From: Hyalangium gracile
GTDB taxonomy: Bacteria > Myxococcota > Myxococcia > Myxococcales > Myxococcaceae
Reading direction: 5' to 3'
Assembly (NCBI RefSeq): GCF_020103725.1
Contig: NZ_JAHXBG010000011.1
Span: 124,001 to 188,000 of the forward strand
DNA length: 64,000 nt
Each line of letters begins with the position of its first letter. Position 1 is the first letter of the stretch. This document shows, piece after piece, positions 25,387 through 27,702 of this stretch. Below the pieces are notes generated by a model. That model saw only the letters and a program-made list of their open reading frames with translations. It did not search any database and was not told where the DNA came from. A program made the position numbers and the translations under genes.

Positions 25387-27702
25387 ATGAGCCAGCTGCA
25401 GCCTGCGACGCCCGAGCAGTCCTCTCCATCACCTCTGGCCTCGAACGAGGCCGTCCCCGTCGCTCCGTCCGCTCCGAGGGGGCTGGAGCACGGCGTCTCC
25501 ATCCGGGACGTCCAGCCCGAGGAGGACGTGTTCTCCTGGCTCCAGCGAGTCCACGGCGGCTTCGAGCTCCCGCGCTACCAGCAGGTGCTGGGAGCGGCCA
25601 ACGCCTACAAGGAAGGGGACGAGGCCATCGGAGTGGCGGCGGCGGACGAGGCGTCCCGCGAGAACGCCCGGAAGCTGCTGGCGCGCACCCGCCTGGGAGC
25701 GCTCCACGCGCACCCACCCCTGGAGGATCGGCTCTTCGCGTTCATGCTCGAGGCCATCGACGCGGAGGCTCGCGCGGAGACGGCGGACTGGACGGTGGGG
25801 CAGCTGAAGGACTTCCTGCTCTCGGCGCGCGAGGAGGAGATCAAGCGCGTCTGCCGGGGCCTGAGCAGCGACGTCATCGCCTGTGTCGTCAAGCTGATGA
25901 GCGACGCGGAGCTCACCACGGTGGGTAGCAAGGTCTTCCACCCGCTACCGGGCAGCAAGCTGGGAGCGCGGGGGTACCTGGGCGCTCGCATCCAGCCGAA
26001 CTCGCCCACGGATCACCCGGAGGACATCCGCTGGCAGGTGTTCAACGGCTGGTCCTTCGCGGTGGGGGACGTGGTGCTGGGCACCAACCCGGTGTCCTCG
26101 GCGCCCGAGTCCGTGGCCGCGGTGGAGGCGGCGCTGCACGACGTGCTGGTCACCTTCGGGCTGCAGGAGGTGATGCCCAACTGCGTGCTGTCTCACATCG
26201 ACATCCAGGCGCGGGTGGAGGAGCTGCAGCCGGGCACCACGGGCATCTGGTTCCAGAGCATCGCGGGCACCGAGGCGGCCAACCGCACCTTCGACGTCAC
26301 GCTGGAGAAGATGGTGGAGCACGCGGCCCGGCGCACCGGGAAGTTCGGGCTCTACTTCGAGACGGGGCAGGGCGCGGACGCGACGAACGGGCAGCACGGC
26401 GGCTGCGACATGGTGCTGCTGGAGTCGCGCAAGTACGGCTTCGCCCGGGCGCTCAAGCGGCGCGTGGCGCTGGCGCAGGTGGGGGCGGGGCGCGAGGCGG
26501 CGCCGTGGGTCCACGTCAACGACGTGGCCGGCTTCATCGGCCCGGAGGTGTTCCGCTCGCGGGAGCAGCTGGTGCGCTGCTGTCTCGAGGACATCGTCAT
26601 GGGCAAGCTGCACGGGCTGATGATCGGCCTGGACATCTGCTCCACGCTGCACATGGACGTGACGCTGGATGATCTCGGCTGGTGCCAGGATCGGATCGCG
26701 CCCGCGTGTCCCGGCTATCTGATGGCGCTGCCGACGCGCAACGATCCGATGCTCAGCTACCTGACCACGGCGTTCCAGGATCACGTGCGTCTGCGCGAGA
26801 AGTTCGGCTACCGGGTGGATGACCGGATGTGGGCCTTCTTCCAGCAGCTCGGGGTGATTGACGCGCAGGGACGGCCCACGGAGCGCTTCGGGGATCCGCG
26901 CTGGGTGTACGTGGAGTACTGCCGGCGCAAGGCAGACACGCGCTCGGAGGCGGCGCTGCTGGCCGAGGCAACGGAGCGGATGGAGGCGATCCGAGCCCGG
27001 GGCGTGCCGCTCGCGGTGGGCCGCGGCGAGCACTCGTGGGAGCTGGAGCCGGGGCTGGATCTGCAGCTGCGCGGCCACTACGAGGACGCCAAGCGAGGCA
27101 TCTGGACGGAGCTGTCACCCCGGTTCATCGAGACGATTCCCCAGGCGGTGCCGCTGCGGACCCAGGCGGTGGATCGGCGCGACTACATCCTCCACCCGGT
27201 CTCCGGCGAGCGGCTGGACGCCGAGTCGGTTCGGGGGGTGGAGGCGCTGCGGCAGCGCCGGGGCTCGCGCTGGGATGTGCAGATCGTCCTGTCGGACGGG
27301 CTGGACCCGCGCTCGCTCATGGACGAGGGCCACCTGGCACCGTTCCTGGAGATCCTGCGGCGCGAGCTGGAGGCGGCGAACTACCGCGTGGCGCCCGAGC
27401 ACCTGGTGCTGAGGTACGGCCGCGTGCGTGCCGGCTATCAGGTGGGAGAGCTGCTGTTCGCGGACGCGGCGGACGGGCTGCAGCGGGCCCTGGTCCATGT
27501 GGTGGGCGAGCGGCCCGGCTCGGGCCATCACGCCTTCTCCGCGTACCTCACGGCGCCCGCGGGCCGCGTCTGGGCGGGCCAGGAGCGCCCGGTGGACCAC
27601 GACATCACCCGCGTCATCGCGGGCATCTCGGACACGAGCGTGCGCCCCGAGGACGCGGCGCGCGAGGCCGTGCGCATCCTCGGGGAGCTGTGCCGGGGCT
27701 GA
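25387..27702 (+). CDS. eutBC: fused ethanolamine ammonia-lyase (EutB-EutC)
   Basis: This 771-residue protein joins both subunits of adenosylcobalamin-dependent ethanolamine ammonia-lyase, which converts ethanolamine to acetaldehyde and ammonia. Residues about 40-520 are EutB. R201 and Q203 (A-R-I-Q-P-N), N234 (G-T-N-P-V), E325 (Y-F-E-T-G-Q-G) and D416 (G-L-D-I-C) match the E. coli substrate residues R160, Q162, N193, E287 and D362. Residues about 560-771 are EutC, with DYILHPVSGERLD, VQIVLSDGL, the R-Y-G-R-V segment and G-E-R-P-G. The first about 60-100 residues of normal EutC are shortened into a linker. I use ATG 25387 after GGGATGGGG; GTG 25381 is an alternative. No other eut gene or EutA reactivase is nearby. 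Confidence 0.93.
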   Translation: MSQLQPATPEQSSPSPLASNEAVPVAPSAPRGLEHGVSIRDVQPEEDVFSWLQRVHGGFELPRYQQVLGAANAYKEGDEAIGVAAADEASRENARKLLARTRLGALHAHPPLEDRLFAFMLEAIDAEARAETADWTVGQLKDFLLSAREEEIKRVCRGLSSDVIACVVKLMSDAELTTVGSKVFHPLPGSKLGARGYLGARIQPNSPTDHPEDIRWQVFNGWSFAVGDVVLGTNPVSSAPESVAAVEAALHDVLVTFGLQEVMPNCVLSHIDIQARVEELQPGTTGIWFQSIAGTEAANRTFDVTLEKMVEHAARRTGKFGLYFETGQGADATNGQHGGCDMVLLESRKYGFARALKRRVALAQVGAGREAAPWVHVNDVAGFIGPEVFRSREQLVRCCLEDIVMGKLHGLMIGLDICSTLHMDVTLDDLGWCQDRIAPACPGYLMALPTRNDPMLSYLTTAFQDHVRLREKFGYRVDDRMWAFFQQLGVIDAQGRPTERFGDPRWVYVEYCRRKADTRSEAALLAEATERMEAIRARGVPLAVGRGEHSWELEPGLDLQLRGHYEDAKRGIWTELSPRFIETIPQAVPLRTQAVDRRDYILHPVSGERLDAESVRGVEALRQRRGSRWDVQIVLSDGLDPRSLMDEGHLAPFLEILRRELEAANYRVAPEHLVLRYGRVRAGYQVGELLFADAADGLQRALVHVVGERPGSGHHAFSAYLTAPAGRVWAGQERPVDHDITRVIAGISDTSVRPEDAAREAVRILGELCRG

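Follow-up and report, generated by a model that had tools for sequence, protein, structure and literature searches.

Ethanolamine ammonia-lyase (EutB/EutC, EC 4.3.1.7) converts ethanolamine into acetaldehyde and ammonia in a reaction dependent on adenosylcobalamin (AdoCbl) and usually consists of two separate subunits, an arrangement that is not essential for its chemistry. The 64,000-nucleotide stretch of DNA analysed here (hereafter the window), which belongs to an 11.7 Mb Myxococcota genome, carries one open reading frame that unites both subunits, and, as a preliminary description of its sequence had claimed, there is no eut operon: genes for EutA, shell proteins and aldehyde dehydrogenase are all absent beside it. 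What might such a solitary single-chain enzyme be, and how could it have arisen? The gene and its parts are as follows:

25387..27702, + strand: single-chain EutB-EutC ethanolamine ammonia-lyase family protein, 771 aa plus stop (ORF, Pfam, NCBIfam, AlphaFold/Foldseek).
25387..25494, + strand: N-terminal extension, residues 1-36, Pro/Ser/Ala-rich, pLDDT below 50, signal peptide absent.
25570..26883, + strand: EutB domain, residues 62-499 (Pfam E 9e-139), with substrate residues R201, Q203, N234, E325, F383 and D416.
26902..27006, + strand: linker, about residues 506-540, the least conserved stretch of the chain.
27001..27693, + strand: EutC domain, residues 539-769 (Pfam E 2e-30), with R679, GERPG (707-711) and the family-specific invariant His 704, 714 and 738.

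The reading frame is intact, with an ATG start and zero internal stops, and its Pfam EutB and EutC domains bear out the one-chain enzyme of 771 residues first described. The protein scores above the cut-off of the NCBIfam EutB model (590 versus 554 bits) and under that of the EutC model (78 versus 230 bits), its EutC half being divergent in sequence. The shortening of the EutC N-terminus noticed earlier is also evident, since the Pfam match begins at profile position 12 and solved EutC chains are matched from residue 88-131. A sequence search against solved structures retrieved the EutB of Listeria and E. coli as nearest, followed by E. coli EutC, and an AlphaFold model built with 53 family members (mean pLDDT 89, pTM 0.88, about residues 1-34 disordered) gave 3abo_A (EutB, TM 0.89 of target) and 3abo_B/D (EutC, TM 0.75-0.78) as its best Foldseek matches in the PDB. 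The nearest relative, from Hyalangium versicolor, is 87% identical overall (90% in EutB, 85% in EutC and 60% in the linker). Purifying selection acts on the gene, as pairwise comparisons with four close relatives give dN/dS values of 0.20-0.30. We saw no split genes in close relatives, and 77 of 80 related loci (see below) keep the matched frame without a stop; this unbroken fusion, together with dN/dS of about 0.2-0.3, rules out an assembly artefact or a pseudogene.

The residues expected of the enzyme are in place. E. coli R160, Q162, N193, E287, F329 and D362 align with R201, Q203, N234, E325, F383 and D416 of the window protein, in agreement with the five substrate positions (all but F383) proposed beforehand, and the equivalents of R160, Q162, N193, S247, E287, F329 and D362 are invariant in 87 of 87 fused and 21 of 21 classical rows. 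The residues that touch the amino and hydroxyl groups of the substrate in E. coli ethanolamine ammonia-lyase (3abo work) are unchanged. The preliminary description had also seen the cobalamin-contact segments of EutC as kept, and SDGL, GRV, GERPG, S239 and Y241 of E. coli EutC are conserved in 78 of 78 or 77 of 78 fused-family sequences. The conserved substrate residues and EutC core favour an AdoCbl-dependent reaction that eliminates ammonia from ethanolamine. The fused family also has features of its own, namely a clade-wide S295T difference in EutB and the histidines 704, 714 and 738 (window positions 27496-27600), which are invariant across the family, missing from E. coli EutC, and possible metal or corrinoid contacts. 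A difference at E257 was dropped as a diagnostic of the fused clade, this position being also variable in classical EutB.

The same genome encodes a second fused EutBC (contig C4, L002:676-3081, minus strand), 63% identical to the window protein. With both copies as queries, a scan of GTDB genomes recovered 80 loci matching across both domains, from Myxococcota, Planctomycetota, Verrucomicrobiota, Acidobacteriota, Bacteroidota, Desulfobacterota and Riflebacteria, among others. In the maximum-likelihood tree, one branch with a support of 100 parts the fused rows from the classical EutB rows, and within Myxococcaceae the EutB scores fall into two classes, about 680 bits for the split form versus about 450 bits for the fused one. 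Rather than being a peculiarity of this gene, the fusion appears in these comparisons as the mark of one multi-phylum clade separate from classical two-gene EutB. The window protein itself lies among 24 myxobacterial rows (Corallococcus, Myxococcus, Archangium, Hyalangium and congeners; support 99), none of which has an export signal. Plasmid records of Sinorhizobium and its relatives contain homologues that are about 52% identical; several lie on symbiosis megaplasmids, and they are annotated as EutB only or carry no annotation. One of them, on Sinorhizobium meliloti pSymA (L190:8899-11247), is a Tat-bearing single-chain EutBC annotated as EutB.

Outside this myxobacterial group, export signals are frequent in the family. 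The Tat route, entered through the motif R-R-x-hydrophobic-hydrophobic, serves folded, cofactor-bearing proteins, and periplasmic cobalamin-containing proteins have been stated to be obligately Tat-dependent (PMC10924467). In a non-redundant set of 90 fused proteins we read the N-termini with a simple motif script rather than SignalP, adding five rows by hand, and found an export signal in 56 of the 87 that could be scored, 31 being without one and 3 not judgeable. These signals occur in at least eight bacterial groups, the symbiosis megaplasmids of S. meliloti included. The prevailing type is Tat-like, with R-R-x-F/V/L followed by a hydrophobic stretch; it is often accompanied by a lipobox in Myxococcus, Archangium and Pyxidicoccus, and takes the form T/S-R-R-x-L-L in 4 of 4 Sinorhizobium/Pararhizobium proteins examined. 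An automatic test (RR-x-hydrophobic plus a hydrophobic core) was passed by 44 of the 90 N-termini, whereas over 300 shuffles the count averaged 1.7 and never exceeded 7, which rules out a chance origin of the Tat motifs. Sec-type signals were seen in L088 (scored as Tat and better read as Sec), L097, L100, L106, L107 and L108, mostly from Desulfobacterota, and a Riflebacteria member is among the proteins with a Sec-like N-terminus; in such relatives the cofactor would have to be bound outside the cytoplasm.

The window protein has neither a twin-arginine nor a Sec signal, so that the export trait was invisible in the preliminary description. A comparison of N-termini places its residues 1-36 at the position of the Tat signal of its relatives; Corallococcus proteins start right at the conserved domain, and the window copy adds this 36-residue Pro/Ser-rich extension. 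The second genomic copy does have a twin-arginine signal at its N-terminus (MRRRTFMSAALFGATTLAVGCGNE), with a lipobox-like AVGC at its end, and TatC is encoded in the genome. Parsimony on the tree requires about 4 changes to the signal-less state among fused rows, and the simplest history would be fusion with export first and a return to the cytoplasm later. Because the classical outgroup is cytoplasmic, we can only infer the direction of this loss.

The genome encodes a PduO-type cobalamin adenosyltransferase and CobS was not found in it, a combination suggestive of B12 salvage. None of the ethanolamine permease models scored above cut-off genome-wide, and no true EutA exists there, the sole match reaching 28 bits over 63 positions. 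EutA-like matches of this kind, fragments of at most 38 bits found in nearly every Myxococcota genome and mostly lying in FtsA-like frames of ~410-430 aa, were rejected as EutA. The preliminary description had reported that EutA, microcompartment and aldehyde dehydrogenase genes are all lacking from the window: this holds, and for EutA it extends to the whole genome, but another contig (C5, about 353-357 kb; L133:7660-11385) bears a microcompartment locus with CcmP-like and PduT-like shell proteins, a BMC-H protein and a EutE-like aldehyde dehydrogenase (674 bits) with an encapsulation-like N-terminal helix. Rfam yielded zero matches anywhere in the window, no cobalamin riboswitch was detected in the window or in 21 family loci, and no functional neighbours are conserved across phyla, the only neighbours shared being sporadic background genes. 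The window gene is not alone in lacking eut neighbours, EutA and a riboswitch. Nor is the lack of EutA unusual, since the eut operon of Pseudomonas, as described (PMC5821096), combines EutB and EutC with a dehydrogenase and a transporter and includes no EutA. Classical EutB proteins in Myxococcota (for example in G009-G013 and G088-G095) are likewise unaccompanied by a recognisable EutA. With no EutA, cobalamin riboswitch, conserved neighbours or permease model over cut-off, the pathway context of the window enzyme is circumstantial.

Taken together, the window protein is probably a working enzyme of the cytoplasm that descends from an exported single-chain AdoCbl-dependent ethanolamine ammonia-lyase, a reading in which catalysis, cofactor, location and physiological role, like the direction of signal loss, are what we infer from sequence comparison. 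Fusion fits export well, since in a one-chain protein a single Tat signal would move both halves across the membrane as a folded holoenzyme. The window lineage would have given up the signal while retaining the fusion, which would have left the gene standing alone, without eut genes. Inside the cell, the enzyme would release ammonia and acetaldehyde from ethanolamine with a cofactor made by the PduO-type enzyme through adenosylation of salvaged B12, and, without EutA, its activity would be limited to the survival time of that cofactor. The ethanolamine may come from the phosphatidylethanolamine of prey, as the preliminary description suggested. More tentatively, and with slightly less than even confidence, we propose for the family as a whole that the enzyme is loaded with B12 in the cytoplasm, exported folded via Tat and deaminates ethanolamine outside, so that volatile acetaldehyde and ammonia enter the cell instead of ethanolamine, the window lineage having moved back into the cytoplasm.

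The strongest alternative to a cytoplasmic ethanolamine ammonia-lyase keeps the chemistry and shifts the substrate to another small vicinal amino alcohol, ethanolamine being a minor one. An identity of only about 30% to characterised EutB, the clade-wide S295T in EutB, the invariant His 704/714/738 in EutC and the absence of linkage between the family and eut genes would all suit such a shift, which nevertheless seems unlikely given that the residues contacting the amino and hydroxyl groups in the E. coli enzyme are unchanged. It is a good deal less probable that the family is not enzymatic at all and consists of exported corrinoid-binding lipoproteins for scavenging or storage, with the window copy as a cytoplasmic derivative. 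The Tat-lipoprotein N-termini of relatives, the lack of EutA and of a permease, and a salvage-type genome without CobS would be in line with this, but the substrate residues, for which a mere binder would have no use, are invariant in 87 of 87 fused rows, and the window copy evolves under purifying selection.

The microcompartment on contig C5 offers a further possibility, namely that the window enzyme is its signature enzyme in a satellite eut system. The compact shell locus has a EutE-like dehydrogenase and no eutBC, the signature enzyme, beside it, and the locus is found in G042 and in three members of the genus with the window-type enzyme (G000, the host, G040 and G041). However, four congeners with the enzyme (G036-G039) lack the locus save for weak single matches, as do Corallococcus, Myxococcus and Archangium, whereas G043 and G044 have the locus and no EutB at all. 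Co-occurrence of enzyme and microcompartment thus shows no consistent pattern across genomes, and the EutC N-terminus, which bears the encapsulation peptide (PMC5821096), is missing from the window protein. We consider this the most improbable of the explanations and retain that of a cytoplasmic descendant of an exported ethanolamine ammonia-lyase.

The chemistry of EutB-EutC is well established, and such proteins already appear as EutB in public annotation; the interest of the family lies in export rather than in fusion, the latter not being unique (see Methylocystis below). We found no description of an exported or single-chain ethanolamine ammonia-lyase in the literature searched, outside which lie most subscription journals, and the exported single-chain EutBC clade is apparently undescribed. 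To our knowledge, no B12 radical enzyme of the ethanolamine-splitting type works outside the cytoplasm, and the AdoCbl cofactor is sensitive to light and oxygen. Ethanolamine ammonia-lyase has been described as an enzyme of the cytoplasm or of microcompartments, in which the cofactor, once damaged, has to be taken out or adenosylated again (PMC5821096). If true, export would raise the questions of how the cofactor survives beyond the cytoplasm, by what means the enzyme could be reactivated when EutA is missing, and whether ethanolamine is used extracellularly. A natural single-chain ethanolamine ammonia-lyase would also be a simple subject for structural work, and with the pSymA homologue the family reaches a genetic model organism, S. 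meliloti.

Among known systems, Pseudomonas has a short eut operon (eutBC, eat and dehydrogenase) which, as described (PMC5821096), resembles the window gene in having neither EutA nor microcompartment genes, but it has a two-gene EutB/EutC with a dedicated permease and dehydrogenase, neighbours that the window gene does not have. Reductive dehalogenases, for example PceA, which is located at the periplasmic side of the membrane (PMC4585668), are exported corrinoid enzymes and in this respect recall the signal-bearing relatives of the window protein; they nevertheless belong to an unrelated family that performs redox reactions with FeS clusters and norpseudo-B12 instead of AdoCbl radical catalysis, and the window copy, for its part, lacks a signal. 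A plasmid protein of Methylocystis sp. MJC1 (WP_165050702.1; L188:5914-8109; 731 aa) also joins EutB and EutC in one chain, but it is about 30% identical, lacks a signal and scores 261 bits with the clade profile versus about 1150-1330 bits for members, and is probably an independent fusion. The classical EutB plus EutC enzyme (E. coli PDB 3abo; Listeria EutB 2qez) differs from the window protein in being encoded by two genes instead of one chain, in belonging to a separate clade at about 30% identity, and in possessing the N-terminal part of EutC with its encapsulation peptide, yet the two are alike in their domains, their fold and every catalytic residue examined.
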